DNA of 64,000 nucleotides, from positions 1 to 64,000 of the IMG/VR virus record IMGVR_UViG_3300032050_009888; one strand, 5' to 3'. The position numbers and the translations under genes were made by a program. This DNA comes from a virus. Under the pieces are notes generated by a model, which saw nothing but the letters and a program-made list of their open reading frames with translations, was not told the origin of the DNA and ran no database searches. This document shows, piece after piece, positions 2,143 through 38,300 of this stretch; the first letter of the stretch is position 1; every line of letters starts with the position of its first letter.

Positions 2143-2936
2143 GAAAAATTAAATTTGATACATGCATAGTAGGTACAGGTAAAGCAGGAATAGACTTCTC
2201 AGCTAAATTAGCTCAAAAGTACAATTTACCTACCGAAGTCAAGTCGACCCAGATTGGAGTGAGATTTGAAAGCCCACAAAAATACTTCCAAAAATTAATT
2301 GATATTAGCTATGATTTTAAACTATATCAAAAATATGATAACGTGTCGTTAAGATCATTTTGTACTAATAATAACGCGGCTTACGTTGCAGTAGAAGAAA
2401 CATATGGTGATATTACTTATAATGGTCATGCTAAGAAAGGTAAGGAATTTGAAAATCAAATGACCAATTTTGGTATATTAATGGAAATTAAGGGTATTGA
2501 AGATCCATTTGAATGGAGTAGAGATGTAGTACAAAAATGCCAAGCGGGATTAACTAACACAGATAATCCAATTGATTTCAAAACAACAGGAATATATTAC
2601 TCTCCATCTAGAACCCCAGGATTAACATCTGAAGGAACTATAGTATCATCAATATCAGTTCCAAATTTAGATACGTTTAAAGAAGCATTTGGTGAGTATG
2701 CTAGTTATATACTTGATTTCATTGACCAAATGAATAAAGTGTTTAAGTTTGGTGATGATTATGGAATTTATATTCCTGAGGTAAAATATTTAAGTCCTGA
2801 ACCATTAGTAAATTATAATGATTTATCATTAACTACATATTCTAATGTACACTTTGTAGGAGATGCTTTAAGTGCTCGTGGTATTACTGTTAGTGGAGCA
2901 CAAGGTATATATGTTGCTGAGTCATTACTTTCCTAA
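2139..2936 (+). CDS. FAD-dependent dehydrogenase, C-terminal fragment (split gene, part 2)
   Basis: 265 residues completing the dehydrogenase begun at 107. It opens with MRKIKFDTCIVGTGKAGIDF, the conserved second nucleotide-contacting block, continues through TQIGVRFESP, YDFKLYQKYDN, SLRSFCTNNNAAYV and TNFGILMEI, and ends with the FAD-proximal block NVHFVGDALSARGITVSGAQ. The ATG at 2139 overlaps the endonuclease stop by 4 nt; an in-frame TTG at 2127 is less likely. No TATTTATA element or separate leader precedes it, so expression should depend on the endonuclease message. A FAD dehydrogenase is an unusual phage accessory gene. No internal stop or frameshift is visible in either piece, which argues against simple decay. 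Confidence 0.8.
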   Translation: MRKIKFDTCIVGTGKAGIDFSAKLAQKYNLPTEVKSTQIGVRFESPQKYFQKLIDISYDFKLYQKYDNVSLRSFCTNNNAAYVAVEETYGDITYNGHAKKGKEFENQMTNFGILMEIKGIEDPFEWSRDVVQKCQAGLTNTDNPIDFKTTGIYYSPSRTPGLTSEGTIVSSISVPNLDTFKEAFGEYASYILDFIDQMNKVFKFGDDYGIYIPEVKYLSPEPLVNYNDLSLTTYSNVHFVGDALSARGITVSGAQGIYVAESLLS

Positions 2937-2944
2937 TATTTATA
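2937..2944 (+). promoter_or_regulatory. TATTTATA element
   Basis: The octamer follows the TAA of the dehydrogenase C-terminal half and lies only 3 nt before the ATG at 2948, the tightest spacing in the window. Confidence 0.5.
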
Positions 2945-2947
2945 AGT

Positions 2948-3469
2948 ATGGCTTCACTCCGTATTCTTATTAAAGAATTAATTGAAGATTTTATACTCCA
3001 AGAAATTGGGGAAGCCAATATTGAGCCTTTTCAATACTCAAAATTATCAGACGTTAAGTATTCTTTTGATTTTGATTATAAAGAAGGACATTTTAATGTT
3101 GAAGTTGATTTTGAAAAATTAGATGATATCTATAAGTCATATTATTTTTCTAAAGTACCTAATTTTAAAAATAAAATATTTTATAATATAGCTTTTAGTG
3201 TTAATGGAGATCAATATAAAGCTTCATCAACAGACCTAAAAACATTATTAAGAATAATGACCACTTTATCTATTATTATTAAAGATTTTATCTCAAATAT
3301 AGATCCTGATGGATTATATATTGAAGCGACAGACAAAGGAGATGACTTAATAAGAGGTAAATATCAAAAATCAGCTACATACCAAGCATATTTAGATAAA
3401 CAATTAGAAAAATTAACAAATTATAAAGTATATACTAATAGGAATGGGTTAAACATCGCGAAAGTATAA
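2948..3469 (+). CDS. unknown phage protein with helical, cleavage-site-like N-terminus
   Basis: 173 residues. Residues 1-22 (MASLRILIKELIEDFILQEI) form an amphipathic helix with (L/I)xE sites, like several head-region proteins here. The body has a beta-rich part (YSFDFDYKEGHFNVEVDF), then FSVNGDQYKASSTDLKTLLR and a helix IMTTLSIIIKDFI followed by DPDGLYIEATDKGD. This pattern resembles a widespread phage family of unknown function that I cannot name. Directly downstream of the split dehydrogenase and followed by a similar-looking gene at 3507. It may be a protein packaged in the head; that is inference from the N-terminus only. Confidence 0.6.
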   Translation: MASLRILIKELIEDFILQEIGEANIEPFQYSKLSDVKYSFDFDYKEGHFNVEVDFEKLDDIYKSYYFSKVPNFKNKIFYNIAFSVNGDQYKASSTDLKTLLRIMTTLSIIIKDFISNIDPDGLYIEATDKGDDLIRGKYQKSATYQAYLDKQLEKLTNYKVYTNRNGLNIAKV

Positions 3470-3479
3470 ATTTTTATAA

Positions 3480-3487
3480 TATTTATA
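3480..3487 (+). promoter_or_regulatory. TATTTATA element
   Basis: Located 10 nt after the stop codon of the preceding gene and 19 nt before the ATG at 3507; flanked as ATAATATTTATAAC. Confidence 0.5.
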
Positions 3488-3506
3488 ACTAAATATCAAC
3501 TTATAC

Positions 3507-4094
3507 ATGGGAAATTTAGTTCAATTTATTAGATCAATGGTTCAAGAGGAACTATCTGAAATGGCAGCTCCTTCATTTTCAATCAAAGTGCTTGATCAAG
3601 ATAAAGCAGAAAGACTTAAAAAATTACACTCAGGCCATTGGGTAGGCAAGTTAATGGACTTAATTATTAAGTCTGGTGAAAATGGTATTACTCGTGGTGA
3701 AGCAGCTAATGCTTTAGACATCAATCCTATGAAACTTAATGATGAGATTAAAGCTCTTCAAGACAGTGGTATTGTATCTAGAGGTAGATTAACACCAGAT
3801 AAACCAGAAAAAACACCAGGCCAACGTGGTAGAAAATCTAGTGATAAAAGTAGAGCAGGTGTTGTTAGAACTTTATTTCAGAACTTTAAAGACAATCCTG
3901 ATTTCACTCCAAGTGAAGATGATGTAACCTATGATATACCTAAAGGTTTAGGAACTGAAAAATTAGGCGATGCTGATGTTGCTAAGATTAAGAGTTCTGC
4001 TTTAGGATTAACTAAACGTGGAAGACCAAAAGTTACACAAGCTGAATCATTACATGAAATGTATTTACGTTTACAAGGTAAACTAAATGGCTAA
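3507..4094 (+). CDS. winged-helix DNA-binding protein with AT-hook-like tail and capsid-targeting-like N-terminus
   Basis: 195 residues. Residues 1-20 (MGNLVQFIRSMVQEELSEMA) look like an amphipathic targeting helix ending at an LSE|M prohead-protease-type site. Residues about 48-90 form a winged helix-turn-helix (GITRGEAANALDINPMKLND, then IKALQDSGIVSRG). Two short basic, glycine-containing motifs follow, GQRGRKSS and KRGRPK; the second has the GRP core of an AT-hook. The charged linker between them is probably disordered. A TATTTATA element precedes it and its last 8 nt overlap the next gene. The combination suggests a DNA-binding protein carried in the capsid and possibly injected, but a cytoplasmic regulator is also possible. 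A similar layout occurs at 10005. Confidence 0.65.
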   Translation: MGNLVQFIRSMVQEELSEMAAPSFSIKVLDQDKAERLKKLHSGHWVGKLMDLIIKSGENGITRGEAANALDINPMKLNDEIKALQDSGIVSRGRLTPDKPEKTPGQRGRKSSDKSRAGVVRTLFQNFKDNPDFTPSEDDVTYDIPKGLGTEKLGDADVAKIKSSALGLTKRGRPKVTQAESLHEMYLRLQGKLNG

Positions 4095-30788: not shown

Positions 30789-33700
30789 ATGGCAATATTT
30801 TACGCAAATAGTGGTAGTTTTGATGTTTTAAATGTTACAGGTAGTTTATATGTATCTGGTACATTTACTGCAACTCAAGGTTTATATATAGATAATTTAA
30901 TTACAGTAGGATTACCAAGTAGTAGTACTCAATTCAATTCAATTAAAGCCGCGGTAGATAGTATTATAGATGCTACTGCTTTTAATACATATACAGTTGA
31001 GGTAGCACCAGGTGTTTATATTGAAGATACAATTACTGTACCTTCTTATGTAGCAGTTAGAGGAGATAGTTCTATATCAACAATAGTATCCGCCTCAAAT
31101 CCTAATAATGGAGTATTCATATTAAGTGATCAATCAATGATCATTGATATGCAAATACAAGGTTCAACAGGTACAGGAGCAACAGCTGTATTATATTCAT
31201 CAGCGACTACACCTCAACTTAACGCTATTTCTTATGTTGAAAATGTAAGATTTGGTTCAAATTATACCAATGCTAAAGTATTAGGTGTACCTGGTGGTAA
31301 TTGTATTATGCAATGCTCAAATGTAAAATACGGTGGCGCTACAGAAAATAATAAATCTTTTGATATTGGATTCCAAGTAACAGGGTCAGGAGGCGGTATT
31401 GGTAGAATGCAGTTACGAAATGTAACTTCTACTAATGGTGGTATTACAGGATCAGCAGATCAAATATTTGCTTTAGCAGATGCTCCAGGTTGTACATTTA
31501 TTGTAAATGGTTGTTTGTTAACTAAAGCAGTTGGTTCTACTTTAGGTACTGGATTTAAAGTTTATAATGGAGGTCAATTACGATTAACAGGTGTTAATTT
31601 TCAAAGATGGGCCAAAGGTATTTGGGCACCACAAACAGGATCAGCTCCTTCCATTGATGCAATCGCTCTTAACTTTGAAAATTGTACTTTAGATGTAGCA
31701 ATTGAACATTCTGGATCAACTGGTAAGATTCAAGGAACAGATACTTTTCTAAAAACACAAATTAATTTAAGTGCTTCCTTATATGAAGTAGGACAAGATC
31801 CACGAATTATTACAGTTGGTACAAAAGGCGCAGACTTTACTTCTATTAGTGCTTCTGTAGCATATATTACAGATTCAGCAGCGAATAACAGATATGTTAT
31901 TCAAGTTGGACCAGGTCAATTTATAGAAAAAGAAATTAATTTAGTAGGTAAACCATATGTAAGTATTGTTGGTAGTAGTATTCAAACTACTCAAATCTTC
32001 CCAAGCTCATCAAATCAGCATTTGATTAAAATGGGAGTAAATAATGAAGTGTCATTTTTATCATTAACAAATGCTCCAACCGGATACTCAGCTTTATATG
32101 TTGATGATGTTGGTGATTTTGCTCAAGCACATAAATTATCTTTTTATGATTGTGATACTTGTATTACAGTTATATCAAGAACTCAAGACACTAAATTTTA
32201 TGGTGAGTATATAGACTTTAATGGTATTTATAGAACAGGTAGTTTTGTTAGTTCATCTAATGGTTTTCAATCACTTGCAAGTTTAGAAAACTATTATCAA
32301 TTCCCAGTTAGCGCCCCAGGTCTAATAGGAAATTATGGTACTGGAAATGTAGCAGAAATTGATATTTATACTGCTGGATTAATAGGAGAAGGCGATACTA
32401 ACTCAGTCGCTATACGATTAGAAAATGGAGCAGATCTGCAAGGTACTGCTATGGACATACCAGCTTGGGGATACGCAGTATATATTCCAGCTGCTAGCTC
32501 TGCTAGCTTTAATATTGTTGGTACTATGATTCATGATTCAGTGAATCTAGATTTTAATATATTACATCCAAGTGCATCTTGTAGATTCCAAGGTACAGCA
32601 GATCATACTAAAATCACTAATGCTAGCCCTAATTTTTATTGGACATTCTTAGATGAAACTGATGGTGAACTTGATATAACAAGAAACTTAGCTGTAACAT
32701 TTGCAGATGGAACTCACACTGATGCCTCAACCTTAATCTTCCGTGGTAGTCCAATGGGAGTTATGCAAGGAGGTGTAATAACAACTTCATCAGCTAACCC
32801 AAATGCTTTAGAAATTGATATAACTGGAGGATTTGGATATTTAGAAACTGCAACACAAGGAGTTTATAAGAGAGTAGATTTTAATGAGTTTCCTGGTTTT
32901 ACTGATTTAACTGATGACTCAGAAAATTATATTTCTGTGGATAAAGATGGTAACATAAAATCAAATTCAACTGAACCAGATAATATCACTGAAATAATAT
33001 TAGGTAGAATATACGCAGCTGGTGGAAGAGTTCAATTTGTAGATCAAAGTCCACGTAATGCTTCACACACAACAAACTTATTATCTACTTTTAATAGAAC
33101 CGCATTAGGACCTGTATTTACTCAAGGAAGTACAGTTACTGCTAATGGAGGAAATAAATTAGATGTATCAAGTGATGGTATTTACTTTTTTGGTGAAAAT
33201 CAATTTAATCCTACTGGTGGAACAACAATAACTTTTGACAGATATTATAGAGATACAGGTCAATCAGATAGTTGGGCTAGACAAGCTACAGATACTGTTC
33301 CGATTAATCAATGGGATTCTGGTTCTAATGCTTTAGTTGCTTTGTCAGCTTCTTATTATACTAAACATACTTTATATTTAATTGGTGATGGAGCAGAAGA
33401 AAAATATTTTTTAGTAACAGGACAACAGCAATTTTCATCATTAGTTTCAGCAGAAAGCTCGGATTTAGCAACTCCACCAAACTTTTTTGTAGATGGTGTA
33501 GTGCCATTAGCAGCAGTTTATGTTCAGTCAGGATCAGGAATAACACAAATAGAAGATATAAGACCAATTATTGGTTTTAGAGCAGGTGGAGTGAACGCAG
33601 CCTCATTCCATGGTAATTTGCTAGGATTAGCTAACGATGATCACTTACAATATCTTTTAGTTAATGGTACTCGAGCTATGAGTGGTCCATTAACTGCTTC

Positions 33701-35537
33701 TATTGTTAGTGCTTCATCAGGATTCATAGGTAATTTAACAGGAACCGCATCTACCGCTTCTTTTGTAACATCATCTAATGTGTACGGACCACATGGTGGA
33801 AACTCAGTATTATCATCATCATTTGCAGTATCTGCTTCTTGGGCTCCAGGTGGTAGCGGAGCAATAATTAATAACAATACTGACAATTATGTAGTCACAG
33901 CTACAGGTACTGCTAATACATTAAATGGTGAAGTTAATTTACAATTTAATGGCTCAACATTAACTATAGTTGGTAATGTGACTGCGTCTTCATTTACTGG
34001 TTCTTTACAGGGAACTGCATCTTATGTAACCGGTTCAGTATTTGGATCAGGAAATCCTGCATTATCAGCATCATATGCTTTATCAGCCTCATATGTAACA
34101 GGATCAATATTTACATCAACAAATCCAGCATTATCAGCATCATATGCTTTATCAGCTTCATACGCTCCTGGTAGTGGTGTAACTATTAACAATAATACTA
34201 ACAATAACTTATTAACTGCTACTGGCAACGCTAATGAAGTAAATGGTGAAGCCAATTTAACATTTGATGGCACTCTATTATCTTTAACTGGTAGGGCTAA
34301 CATATCAACATCTGTAACTGCGTCTTCATTTACTGGATCATTTGTTGGAAATGGCTCAGGATTAACAGGAGTATCAGCAACCGCAGCTCCTGCTGGTCCA
34401 CCTAACGCTATACAATTTAATGATGCGGGAACAGTATCCGGATCAGGTAATTTTACATTTAACAAAACAACAAATAGTGTAGATATAACAGGAAGTTTAT
34501 CTGGTTCTTTCTTAACAAGAGGTTTAAGATTTGGAGAAGTAACAGATACACCTGGTACCACACAAAATGATTACTCGCCAACTGGATGGAATGATGGTGA
34601 TCCTAATATGGCTACTACTATTAATATTAGTGGTAGCACAGACATAAAAATAACTGGTCTAGCTGGAGGAACAGCAGGAAGAGTAGCTGTATTAAAAAAT
34701 ACATCTGTTTCCTTTTTAGTTCTTCTAGAAGACGACTCAGCATCTTCTACAGCAGCAAATAGATTTGACTTTAGAAATCCAATTTTCTTGTTACCTAATG
34801 CTAGTATAACTTTAGTCTATGATAATCATAGTCAAAGATGGGAACCTATAGCGGCATCAGGTGGTATAGGTTATGGAGCTTTCTTTAATCAACAAGAAGA
34901 ATTTTTAGGTTCAATTGGTCAGTGGGGATCAGCAGTCAATGGAACCGGTGCTTCTGTTCAGATTAGTACCTACTTACAAAATACTACTGAAAAACCATTA
35001 GGTATGTGGCAAGCTGATACTGGTACAACAAATGCTGGTAGAGCACATATTGGATCACCTCAAGCAACATCAGTATTTCCTACTTTAGGTCAAGGAATTT
35101 GTTTAGCTCGTTTAGCAGTTGAGGCATTATCCAGCGTCACTGACAGGTACCAAATTTTCTTTGGATGGCATGATGCTGTAGGTGCTACAAACGTAACTGA
35201 TGGTGTATATTGGTTATATGATGATGCTGCCTCAATCGCTTGGCAAGGGGCAACAGCTAATAACTCTGTTAGAACAACAACCGGAGCAGCTGGGCCAACA
35301 GTAGATGTTAACTATATTTGGTTAGGAATTTATGTTAATAGTAGTTGGACTAGAGCTACATATTTTTATTCAAATGATAGTATAACATGGACTATTGCTG
35401 GTTCACAAACTACCAACTTACCTACATTAGCTAGAAACACAGGATTTGGAGTAACAATTAATAAAACAATTGGAACTACTGTAAGAAACGTTTCTATAGA
35501 TTTTCTAGCTAATAGATATGATATTACTAGAGGATAA
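30789..35537 (+). CDS. giant tail fibre with beta-helix domain
   Basis: 1582 residues, the longest gene here. The N-terminus (GSFDVLNVTGSLYVSGTFTA) is fibre-type. Residues about 45-330 look like a right-handed beta-helix of the pectate-lyase-like kind (FNSIKAAVDSIIDATAFNTY, VEVAPGVYIEDTITVPSYVA, VRGDSSISTIVSAS). A second similar segment occurs at about residues 345-460. The DDHLQYLLVNGTRAMSGPL motif near residue 950 is common in fibres. Then come repeats such as PALSASYALSASYVTGS (around 34060-34170), a GNGSGLTGV unit, and a ~320-residue C-terminal globular domain. No catalytic depolymerase residues can be assigned by eye. Likely the long tail fibre or receptor-binding protein. Confidence 0.75.
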   Translation: MAIFYANSGSFDVLNVTGSLYVSGTFTATQGLYIDNLITVGLPSSSTQFNSIKAAVDSIIDATAFNTYTVEVAPGVYIEDTITVPSYVAVRGDSSISTIVSASNPNNGVFILSDQSMIIDMQIQGSTGTGATAVLYSSATTPQLNAISYVENVRFGSNYTNAKVLGVPGGNCIMQCSNVKYGGATENNKSFDIGFQVTGSGGGIGRMQLRNVTSTNGGITGSADQIFALADAPGCTFIVNGCLLTKAVGSTLGTGFKVYNGGQLRLTGVNFQRWAKGIWAPQTGSAPSIDAIALNFENCTLDVAIEHSGSTGKIQGTDTFLKTQINLSASLYEVGQDPRIITVGTKGADFTSISASVAYITDSAANNRYVIQVGPGQFIEKEINLVGKPYVSIVGSSIQTTQIFPSSSNQHLIKMGVNNEVSFLSLTNAPTGYSALYVDDVGDFAQAHKLSFYDCDTCITVISRTQDTKFYGEYIDFNGIYRTGSFVSSSNGFQSLASLENYYQFPVSAPGLIGNYGTGNVAEIDIYTAGLIGEGDTNSVAIRLENGADLQGTAMDIPAWGYAVYIPAASSASFNIVGTMIHDSVNLDFNILHPSASCRFQGTADHTKITNASPNFYWTFLDETDGELDITRNLAVTFADGTHTDASTLIFRGSPMGVMQGGVITTSSANPNALEIDITGGFGYLETATQGVYKRVDFNEFPGFTDLTDDSENYISVDKDGNIKSNSTEPDNITEIILGRIYAAGGRVQFVDQSPRNASHTTNLLSTFNRTALGPVFTQGSTVTANGGNKLDVSSDGIYFFGENQFNPTGGTTITFDRYYRDTGQSDSWARQATDTVPINQWDSGSNALVALSASYYTKHTLYLIGDGAEEKYFLVTGQQQFSSLVSAESSDLATPPNFFVDGVVPLAAVYVQSGSGITQIEDIRPIIGFRAGGVNAASFHGNLLGLANDDHLQYLLVNGTRAMSGPLTASIVSASSGFIGNLTGTASTASFVTSSNVYGPHGGNSVLSSSFAVSASWAPGGSGAIINNNTDNYVVTATGTANTLNGEVNLQFNGSTLTIVGNVTASSFTGSLQGTASYVTGSVFGSGNPALSASYALSASYVTGSIFTSTNPALSASYALSASYAPGSGVTINNNTNNNLLTATGNANEVNGEANLTFDGTLLSLTGRANISTSVTASSFTGSFVGNGSGLTGVSATAAPAGPPNAIQFNDAGTVSGSGNFTFNKTTNSVDITGSLSGSFLTRGLRFGEVTDTPGTTQNDYSPTGWNDGDPNMATTINISGSTDIKITGLAGGTAGRVAVLKNTSVSFLVLLEDDSASSTAANRFDFRNPIFLLPNASITLVYDNHSQRWEPIAASGGIGYGAFFNQQEEFLGSIGQWGSAVNGTGASVQISTYLQNTTEKPLGMWQADTGTTNAGRAHIGSPQATSVFPTLGQGICLARLAVEALSSVTDRYQIFFGWHDAVGATNVTDGVYWLYDDAASIAWQGATANNSVRTTTGAAGPTVDVNYIWLGIYVNSSWTRATYFYSNDSITWTIAGSQTTNLPTLARNTGFGVTINKTIGTTVRNVSIDFLANRYDITRG

Positions 35538-35557: not shown

Positions 35558-35565
35558 TATTTATA
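35558..35565 (+). promoter_or_regulatory. TATTTATA element
   Basis: Context CGTATTTATAGTAAAC, slightly different from the common ATATTTATAAC; 14 nt before the ATG at 35580. A weak A/T hairpin (AATATT-T-AATATT plus T run, near 35536-35552) precedes it and may end the fibre transcript. Confidence 0.4.
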
Positions 35566-35579
35566 GTAAACATCATACT

Positions 35580-36425
35580 ATGAAACACATATTATGGCTT
35601 ATTTTGTTAATAGGCTTTGAAGTAAAAGCACAATTGCCTGGTCCAGTAATTGGCACAGCTGTAGCTATACCAGCAGGATCTTTTAATTGTACCCAATCAA
35701 CATTCCCAGCACCAGTTGGTGTTTCCAATGAAGGTGATCCTGTCACAATGTGTTTTAATTATTATAATGTAGGTCCAATAAATTTAAGTTATTTATTAGT
35801 AAATGGACTATGTGGACCATTTCCACTTTATAATTCCTTAAGTTTTCAAATATTTGATTCAACAGGTACACAGTTTATAACATCTGGTACAATTGTTCCT
35901 ATAGCAAATAATATTACTATTACAAGTCTAACACCTAGTACCTATTATACTATATGTTATACTTGGGTTCCTAATTGCCCACAGTTTTCAGGATGTCCTT
36001 TAATTTATACATCTGCTTTACCAATTGAATTACTTTATTTTAATGGAGAAATAAAGGATAATAATGTTATTTTAAAATGGGCCACAGCTACTGAAACTAA
36101 TGTTGATAAATTTATAATTGAAAAAACTTATGATGCTATTACTTTTACAACTGTAACTGAAATTAAAGTTGAAGGTAATTCTACAAATACAAACTTTTAT
36201 GAGACTATAGACTATAATGAAACTAATGAATTAGTTTACTATAAACTTGTAGAAGTAACAATTGAAGGACAAAGAATAGATCAAAGTATAATAGTTGTAA
36301 ATAGAAAAAATCAAAACATCCCAACTCAAATTTTTGATATAACAGGAAAAGAATTAAATGATTATAAATCTGGTTTTAATATAGTAAGACAAGGAGAAAA
36401 ATATTACAAAATTATAAAGCTATGA
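35580..36425 (+). CDS. secreted protein with Bacteroidota T9SS-like C-terminus
   Basis: 281 residues. Residues 1-17 (MKHILWLILLIGFEVKA) are a signal peptide with likely cleavage before Q18, the KA|Q pattern common in Bacteroidota. Residues about 20-145 form a cysteine-containing beta domain. Residues about 148-245 (LPIELLYFNGEIKDNNVILK, WATATETNVDKFIIEK) match the domain that precedes the type IX secretion sorting signal in many Bacteroidota proteins. The last ~35 residues (PTQIFDITGKELNDYKSG, then KYYKIIKL) resemble a type A sorting domain. This host-like gene sits between fibre and neck genes and overlaps the next gene by 4 nt. It is likely acquired from a host and could modify the host surface or be a virion component. 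Confidence 0.75.
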   Translation: MKHILWLILLIGFEVKAQLPGPVIGTAVAIPAGSFNCTQSTFPAPVGVSNEGDPVTMCFNYYNVGPINLSYLLVNGLCGPFPLYNSLSFQIFDSTGTQFITSGTIVPIANNITITSLTPSTYYTICYTWVPNCPQFSGCPLIYTSALPIELLYFNGEIKDNNVILKWATATETNVDKFIIEKTYDAITFTTVTEIKVEGNSTNTNFYETIDYNETNELVYYKLVEVTIEGQRIDQSIIVVNRKNQNIPTQIFDITGKELNDYKSGFNIVRQGEKYYKIIKL

Positions 36426-37154: not shown

Positions 37155-38300
37155 ATGAACATTCCTATATATCCTGGTTCTTCTTCATTTTACCCTGGAA
37201 TGACTCCATTTGGGTTTTATGACTATGATTATCAATTTCAAATAGATGCTGATAAAGTAGTTACATTTTGTGCTAGAAGATTAGGATATCCTATTATGGA
37301 GGTTGAACTCCAAGATATAAATTTCTATGCTGCTTTTGAAGAAGCAATTACAACTTATGGAAATGAATTATATGCTTTTCAAGTAAGAGATAATTTATTA
37401 AGCGTAATAGGAGCTCCTACAGCTTCAAATATGAATCATGCTATTGTAACTCCATCTTTTACTGGAATCATTAGATTAACTGAACAATATGGAGAAGAAG
37501 CAGGTGTAGGAGGAAATGTAAATTGGTATAGTGGTTCATTTACTACCACAGCTGGAGTTCAAGATTATGATTTTAATTTGTGGGCTATAGAGAATAATGT
37601 AACTGGTGGGATGGAAATTAAAAGAGTATTTTGGGAACCACCACCTGCTGTCAACCAAGTTTACAACTTAAGTATATTCTCAGGCCTAGGAGGTGTACCC
37701 GCGGTTGGTGCTTATGGTCTATTTGGATCAACAGGATTCTTAATGTACCCTACAAGTTTATTACTTCAATCTGCTCAAGCAGTTGAAATGCAAAACCAAA
37801 TTTCTCTAGCAGGATATTCATTTGAATTAATAAATAACAAATTAAGAATATTTCCAATTCCTCCTCATGATGGAGGACATATTTGGTTTCAATATATTTC
37901 TTTAGAAGAAAGAGCAAATAGTATAATTGATAATTCATCACAAGCCCAAGGGTCAGTGACAAATCCTTCAAATGTTAATTTTACTAATCCTGTTTACTCT
38001 CAAATAAACTCAATTGGTCGCCAGTGGATATTTGAATATGTTTTAGCTATATGTAAAGAAATGTTAGGGTATGTTCGTGGAAAATATCAAGCTACAATTC
38101 CTATTCCTAACAGAGAAATATCTTTAAATTCAAATGACTTAATCACAGCAGCCACAGCTGAAAAACAAGCATTACTTGAAAGATTAAGAGGATATTTAGA
38201 TGAAACTTCTCGTCAAGCTTTATTAGCTAGAAAACAAGCAGAAGGTGATTCTACAATGAGTGAACTTGGAAAAGTACCAATGGTAATTTATATAGGATAA
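37155..38300 (+). CDS. 13: neck protein (gp13-like)
   Basis: 381 residues. The region DADKVVTFCARRLGYPIMEV, ELQDINFYAAFEEAITTYGN matches T4-type gp13 head-completion proteins. Later motifs are EIKRVFWEPPP, LINNKLRIFPIPPHDGG, IWFQYISLEERAN and EYVLAICKEMLGYVRGKY. It joins the filled head to the tail together with gp14. It is followed after 1 nt by the gp14-like gene, and the order gp13-gp14-gp15-gp18-gp19 supports the call. It is longer than T4 gp13 (309 aa), with an added proline-rich N-terminus (YPGSSSFYPGMTPFGF). Confidence 0.85.
   Translation: MNIPIYPGSSSFYPGMTPFGFYDYDYQFQIDADKVVTFCARRLGYPIMEVELQDINFYAAFEEAITTYGNELYAFQVRDNLLSVIGAPTASNMNHAIVTPSFTGIIRLTEQYGEEAGVGGNVNWYSGSFTTTAGVQDYDFNLWAIENNVTGGMEIKRVFWEPPPAVNQVYNLSIFSGLGGVPAVGAYGLFGSTGFLMYPTSLLLQSAQAVEMQNQISLAGYSFELINNKLRIFPIPPHDGGHIWFQYISLEERANSIIDNSSQAQGSVTNPSNVNFTNPVYSQINSIGRQWIFEYVLAICKEMLGYVRGKYQATIPIPNREISLNSNDLITAATAEKQALLERLRGYLDETSRQALLARKQAEGDSTMSELGKVPMVIYIG

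Follow-up and report, generated by a model that had tools for sequence, protein, structure and literature searches.

Whether a phage can carry a protein derived from the type IX secretion system (T9SS) cargo of Bacteroidota, and what such a protein would do during infection, is the question raised by one 281-aa open reading frame (ORF) and the gene that follows it. The window analyzed here is a 64-kb stretch of a 76,427-base IMG/VR virus record. The phage is T4-like, with matching tail sheath and tail tube genes, and the nearest named relative of the sheath (47% identical) belongs to Flavobacterium phage immuto, in which a syntenic counterpart was looked for and none was seen. A previous sequence-only reading had located the ORF, hereafter the cargo ORF, in the tail gene region behind a late-type element, and both observations held. 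Upstream of the cargo ORF is a long tail-fibre-like ORF (30789..35537). Downstream, beyond the cargo and the next gene, come a neck/head-tail adaptor gene (37155..38300; PHROG 211, 1.3e-9) and then the tail sheath and tail tube genes. The element TATTTATARTAAAC precedes the ATG as an exact copy (Table 1) and, with up to two mismatches, occurs at 33 sites in the window, against 9.6 expected. These sites (e.g., 35558, 37132, 63285, and 63921) often lie immediately 5' of start codons, and the repeated element is likely a late promoter or a start-site element.

Other phages have homologues that are 83%, 57%, and 47% identical, which, together with a dN/dS ratio of 0.20, place the cargo ORF beyond chance; as judged by this comparison, it is a real gene under purifying selection, and its product is very likely exported. 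The signal peptide proposed earlier was recovered by a crude hydropathy scan, and all homologues of the protein have a signal-like N-terminus; the scan found such N-termini in seven ORFs of the phage, including the cargo and the next gene. The explanation that we favor, with a probability of about two in five, is that these genes belong to a late, horizontally exchanged phage module that remodels the outer surface of the host.

Table 1. Coordinates of the features of the cargo gene and its neighbor in the window
Feature	Position	Strand	Basis or remarks
Late-promoter-like element TATTTATAGTAAAC	35558..35571	+	exact match; ends 8 nt before cargo ATG
Cargo ORF	35580..36425	+	281 aa, ATG start; homologues in L001/L002, L003, L008, L004, L011, L013; dN/dS 0.20
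Predicted Sec signal peptide, residues 1-18	35580..35633	+	crude hydropathy scan; signal-like N-terminus in all homologues
N-domain, residues 19-146	35634..36017	+	six conserved Cys: C37, C58, C78, C126, C133, C139
FN3-like 'LPVELL' domain, residues 147-240	36018..36299	+	seven strands, AF2 pLDDT about 70-82
Halved type A CTD (tail), residues 241-281	36300..36422	+	alignment with bacterial CTDs; tail-length survey
IFDITGKEL, counterpart of motif L-beta3beta4 (RgpB FDMNGRR)	36330..36356	+	HMM match and alignment
GFNIVRQGEKYYKIIKL, counterpart of C-terminal beta6-beta7 signal (motif C-t)	36372..36422	+	alignment
Predicted 8-stranded outer-membrane beta-barrel, 233 aa	36422..37123	+	signal peptide ending VLKAQ; AF2 pLDDT 72, pTM 0.70

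A cargo-derived protein with a shortened tail

The cargo protein begins with MKHILWLILLIGFEVKA followed by QLPG, contains LPIELLYFNGEIKDNNVILK internally, and ends in IFDITGKELNDYKSGFNIVRQGEKYYKIIKL; we infer cleavage of the signal between KA and Q, or one residue later. Searches of the protein against Pfam, NCBIfam, and PHROG gave no convincing family match, and a fold search with its model returned generic FN3/Ig matches alone, at low TM-score. In alignment, the N-domain is the best conserved region among distant homologues, and within the material examined here it was seen in phages only: a pattern scan of genome contigs found none, and among 296 Bacteroidota genomes there was no clear relative, with three weak matches at E values of 0.004 to 0.01. 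A bacterial origin of this domain was set aside on these results; the one weak match inspected (L154) resembles an unrelated repetitive Ig-type protein. Because the AF2 model of the N-domain is of low confidence, neither a ligand nor a receptor can be named.

In Bacteroidota T9SS cargo, the type A sorting domain comes directly after an FN3-like domain, and it is to this FN3-like domain that the C-terminal half is homologous; in the homologue L011 this region also gave a weak fn3 match. Its relatives in genomes are all from Bacteroidota and all end in a full-size C-terminal domain (CTD), with 8 to 67 copies of the FN3-like domain in each of the seven genomes searched. The T9SS-like relation suggested earlier is upheld by this homology and by tail motifs beyond chance; the sorting-domain assignment is not, since the window protein matched none of TIGR04183, TIGR04131, and PF18962 and its tail is about half a CTD. 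The lack of a sorting-domain match, which the sequence-only reading had itself named as refuting, is what the curated models show. The type B model (TIGR04131) gave no match in NCBIfam at E values up to 10, and the homologue L008 reached 16.5 bits against a cut-off of 23. The models work on true members, as the bacterial positive controls L019 and L027 exceed the cut-offs of TIGR04183 and PF18962. On the curated models, both a standard type A CTD and a standard type B CTD were rejected.

The protein shares with T9SS type A cargo (TIGR04183/PF18962) a predicted N-terminal Sec signal (crude hydropathy scan), the FN3-like 'LPVELL' domain, and counterparts of the L-beta3beta4 motif and the C-terminal hairpin, which are modest for the window tail by itself (8 of 500 shuffles). 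In contrast, the seven-stranded Ig-like CTD of about 65 to 100 residues is replaced by about 41 residues after the FN3-like domain, about half the usual length and without a curated match. Such a tail is too short for the seven-stranded sandwich, which is reported to be important for secretion (PMC11285876). Since the protein has neither a curated CTD match nor seven strands, we term it type A cargo-derived, a protein that possibly works like a type A cargo and is not one. Its derivation from Bacteroidota T9SS cargo is strongly supported by the sequence comparisons.

In alignment with bacterial CTDs, the tail retains the beta3-beta4 loop and the C-terminal beta6-beta7 hairpin and is without beta1, beta2 (PNP motif), and beta5. 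Measured from the YYRL motif to the stop, tails in several phage lineages comprise 61 to 69 residues, versus 92 to 117 in 45 bacterial cargos, a shortness that the sequence-only reading had missed. The value is 61 in L004, L011, and L013, about 62 in the window and L003, 63 to 66 in L018 and L096-L100, and 68 to 69 in L008 and L015. Two huge phages have tails of full length, 104 residues in L016 and 112 in L017, and the L017 protein exceeds the TIGR04183 cut-off.

The likeness of the tails to bacterial CTDs was scored with an HMM of 52 such CTDs, with the FN3 part removed, using 500 shuffles per tail. The observed score was reached by no shuffle for L003, L008, and L097, by 2 for L004, 5 for L011, 7 for L098 and L099, and 8 for the window, and by 28 to 63 for L015, L018, L096, and L100. 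The best local match fell at the beta3-beta4 segment in 11 of the 12 tails tested; the score comes from this part, and the likeness of the hairpin rests on alignment. When 325 ORF C-termini from three phages were ranked with the same HMM, the window, L013, and L008 proteins came second, third, and fifth. Ranked first was a further secreted cargo from the L008 phage (L136:2495-6907, minus strand), which lies in a 1,470-aa frame and ends in a full-length CTD; it scored 16.0 bits against TIGR04183 (positions 7-69 of 72), under the cut-off. A protein with a full-length T9SS-type CTD and one with a halved CTD occur in this single phage. The L008 phage also encodes an exported coiled-coil and barrel-like 362-aa protein, followed by an LPITL-type secreted protein ending after WDLLGRQIK (L136:10355-12748).

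A bacterial form of the short tail was sought in two overlapping sets of Bacteroidota genomes, of 198 and 395, and none was found among the matches listed. Bacterial matches ended before the end of the model, the closest (1-111 of 115) having a 104-residue tail, whereas the phage controls ran to the model end, covering at least positions 2-133 of 136. As the best 11 to 21 candidates per genome were scored, rare bacterial short forms may exist. A 39-residue tail query, which has little power, gave no match in 247 Bacteroidota genomes.

The carriage of T9SS-like cargo by a phage had been called unusual, which is an overstatement. Phage-borne T9SS cargo has been published (PMC7468147; PMC6949934), and the L017 protein (L017:2464-3573; LR756500.1, a 462-kb phage) is a clear phage-borne type A cargo at 5.3e-8 against TIGR04183. 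The cryophage (PMC7468147) and BACON-phage (PMC6949934) proteins are, like ours, phage-borne and related to host T9SS cargo; however, their assignment rested on standard sorting domains (enzymes, PA14, BACON), whereas the protein here has a halved tail and a conserved barrel. The novelty lies in the halved signal, which within the sample studied appears confined to phages, in the barrel coupled to the cargo, and in the presence of the module in both T4-like and crAss-like phages.

The adjacent outer-membrane barrel

The next gene, which the sequence-only reading had missed, is translationally coupled to the cargo gene, its start codon and the cargo stop codon overlapping in ATGA. Its AF2 model, built from five sequences, is an eight-stranded barrel that matches OprG, OmpW, and OmpA, with Foldseek E values of about 1e-5 to 1e-4 for OprG and OmpW; against OmpW/OmpA (VIA), Z was 14 to 16 and rmsd 3.0 to 4.0 over 160 to 177 aligned residues. 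The model indicates a common fold, not family membership. Phages encoding OmpW-like or OmpA-fold barrels are known, and the predicted eight-stranded outer-membrane fold is what the product shares with OmpW, OprG, and OmpA; it differs from them in a structural-alignment identity of about 10 to 14%, a conserved end, YHxRxWxNNY, after the last strand, and its pairing with a cargo gene. The barrel lies directly downstream of the cargo gene in the same order in L003, L004, L011, and L013, with lengths of 167 to 233 aa and eight predicted strands. No barrel homologue turned up in 296 Bacteroidota genomes, a search that had no positive control from bacteria.

The gene order recalls type B cargos, which need a shuttle encoded directly downstream (PMC12618676), and the barrel could likewise be a dedicated shuttle or anchor that receives the short-tailed cargo at the translocon and keeps it on the cell surface, which would be a more specific form of the surface-remodeling explanation. 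The overlapping cargo-then-barrel order in two unrelated phage groups speaks for such a role, and the succession of a secreted-protein gene and an outer-membrane barrel gene is as in the type B/SprF-like system (PMC12618676). However, the tail here is not a type B CTD, the barrel is small and predicted to be eight-stranded (167 to 233 aa), and the L008 phage has the cargo without a barrel homologue on its 45-kb contig, which leaves a dedicated shuttle quite unlikely. Searches of Pfam (at E values to 1 with the window barrel and to 10 with the L004 barrel) and of NCBIfam (to 10) gave no match at all, PorP/SprF included. A PorP/SprF identity was rejected on this result and on the small size of the barrel; the lack of PorP/SprF chains in the fold list was not counted as evidence.

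A module shared by unrelated phages

The cargo/barrel pair occurs in the same order in T4-like phages (the window and L001-L003) and in crAss-like phages (L004, L011, and L013). The major head protein (PHROG, 6.4e-95) identifies the L004 phage as crAss-like, and L011 and L013 have the same gene neighborhood. The L004 phage matches only 3 of the 81 ORFs of the window phage, those for the cargo (47%), the barrel (33%), and a lipoprotein (40%). Matches in the L008 phage are the cargo at 57%, the lipoprotein at 77%, and three further genes, and L096, L097, L099, and L100, like the L008 phage, carry such proteins without this barrel. The lipoprotein gene of our phage (L006:8652-9221; record 72651-73220, outside the window) lies directly after the endolysin gene, and its product contains the conserved TSGVLDKRGGGG...NPNxPxYNPC. 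The lipoprotein is common to otherwise unrelated crAss-like and other phages at 40 to 87% identity; a fragment with neighbors of crAss-like type has it at 87%, so the exchange between the groups appears to be recent. As far as sequence can tell, the occurrence of the pair and the lipoprotein in unrelated phages and the overlap of the cargo and barrel genes are strongly supported.

A position among tail genes would suit a virion component, such as a tail fibre tip or decoration. However, the signal peptide and six Cys fit an exported protein better than one built into virions in the cytoplasm, the neighboring downstream gene encodes a predicted outer-membrane barrel, and relatives stand in different contexts in unrelated phages, so that a place in the virion is very improbable.

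The dN/dS values of the cargo, its tail, and the barrel are, respectively, 0.20, 0.32, and 0.14 when the window is compared with L003 and 0.16, 0.15, and 0.05 when L004 is compared with L013; the tail and the barrel are thus under purifying selection. Synonymous divergence was 0.77 and 1.17 in the N-domain versus 0.17 to 0.24 and 0.15 to 0.29 in the C-terminal half. Since the divergence of the N-domain is far above that of the C-terminal half, these values suggest an exchange of N-domains on an export half that stays the same. Other phages, on the IMG/VR contigs L095-L100, encode secreted FN3-like proteins with varied N-modules (CUB, fn3 repeats) and the short tail NTLGQEVD...GxxIxxYEDGSxxKxI.

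Possible function of the module

How the T9SS recognizes its cargo is debated: it may need the entire domain of seven strands, or chiefly one loop together with the C-terminal hairpin. The motifs L-beta3beta4 and C-t are relevant for T9SS function (PMC11285876), and the smallest part of HBP35 that delivers GFP to the surface is reported to be its last 22 residues, motifs A-C being dispensable (PMC3120885); a signal in the last 22 residues also appears in PMC4804311. PMC11285876, for its part, also argues that the whole seven-stranded sandwich matters for secretion. A naturally halved signal of near-constant length in several phage lineages makes this debate directly testable and could yield a short secretion tag for Bacteroidota.

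Under the surface-remodeling explanation, the cargo and the barrel would be made together late in infection and exported by Sec, the barrel going into the outer membrane. The halved CTD is proposed to serve still as a minimal T9SS signal, and the host T9SS would probably move the cargo to the surface by means of this reduced signal. There the N-domain would be displayed, either uncleaved or held by the barrel. In the least certain step, it would most likely block a phage receptor, as superinfection exclusion or to keep progeny off debris. A surface-directed trio, its spread in unrelated phages, and the apparent swapping of N-domains would fit a variable surface target, as in receptor blocking; superinfection exclusion is perhaps its role, a suggestion drawn from the surface direction of the module. 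That phages of Bacteroidota have evolved a sufficient signal of about 40 residues, cut down to the two recognition motifs, and that a small phage barrel replaces the host shuttle or anchor is, as a joint claim, unlikely; if true, it would let phage proteins compete with host cargo for the T9SS.

The absence of a curated CTD match and the loss of half the CTD would suit a cargo that is exported by Sec and stays in the periplasm, its T9SS signal decayed, the FN3-like domain and hairpin forming a structural end, and its role with the barrel lying in the envelope, for example, around lysis. The crAss-like relatives lend this some weight: by inspection, their pair is preceded by a short TM/coiled-coil protein and followed by a small lipoprotein-like ORF, a two-TM holin-like protein, and a u-spanin-like protein (lipobox, C-terminal TM). 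In the window phage, however, the pair is not near the endolysin. Furthermore, the tail retains the very segments that are linked to recognition by the T9SS, which are kept in many phages under purifying selection, and a signal in decay would hardly be expected to reach such similar lengths in several lineages. We regard a periplasmic cargo as a tentative possibility. Within the surface-remodeling explanation, the occurrence of the three envelope proteins in unrelated phages suggests a conserved means by which infecting phages alter the surface of the host.

Two further observations on this phage were made by eye. Two halves of an FAD-dependent oxidoreductase-like gene occupy 107-625 and 2127-2936 of the window and are separated by other ORFs and a GIY-YIG-like homing endonuclease gene (1357-2142). 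Additionally, QueC-, QueE-, and FolE-like genes (L006:735-1553, 2505-3350, and 3385-4035) suggest a preQ0/7-deazaguanine modification of the phage DNA.
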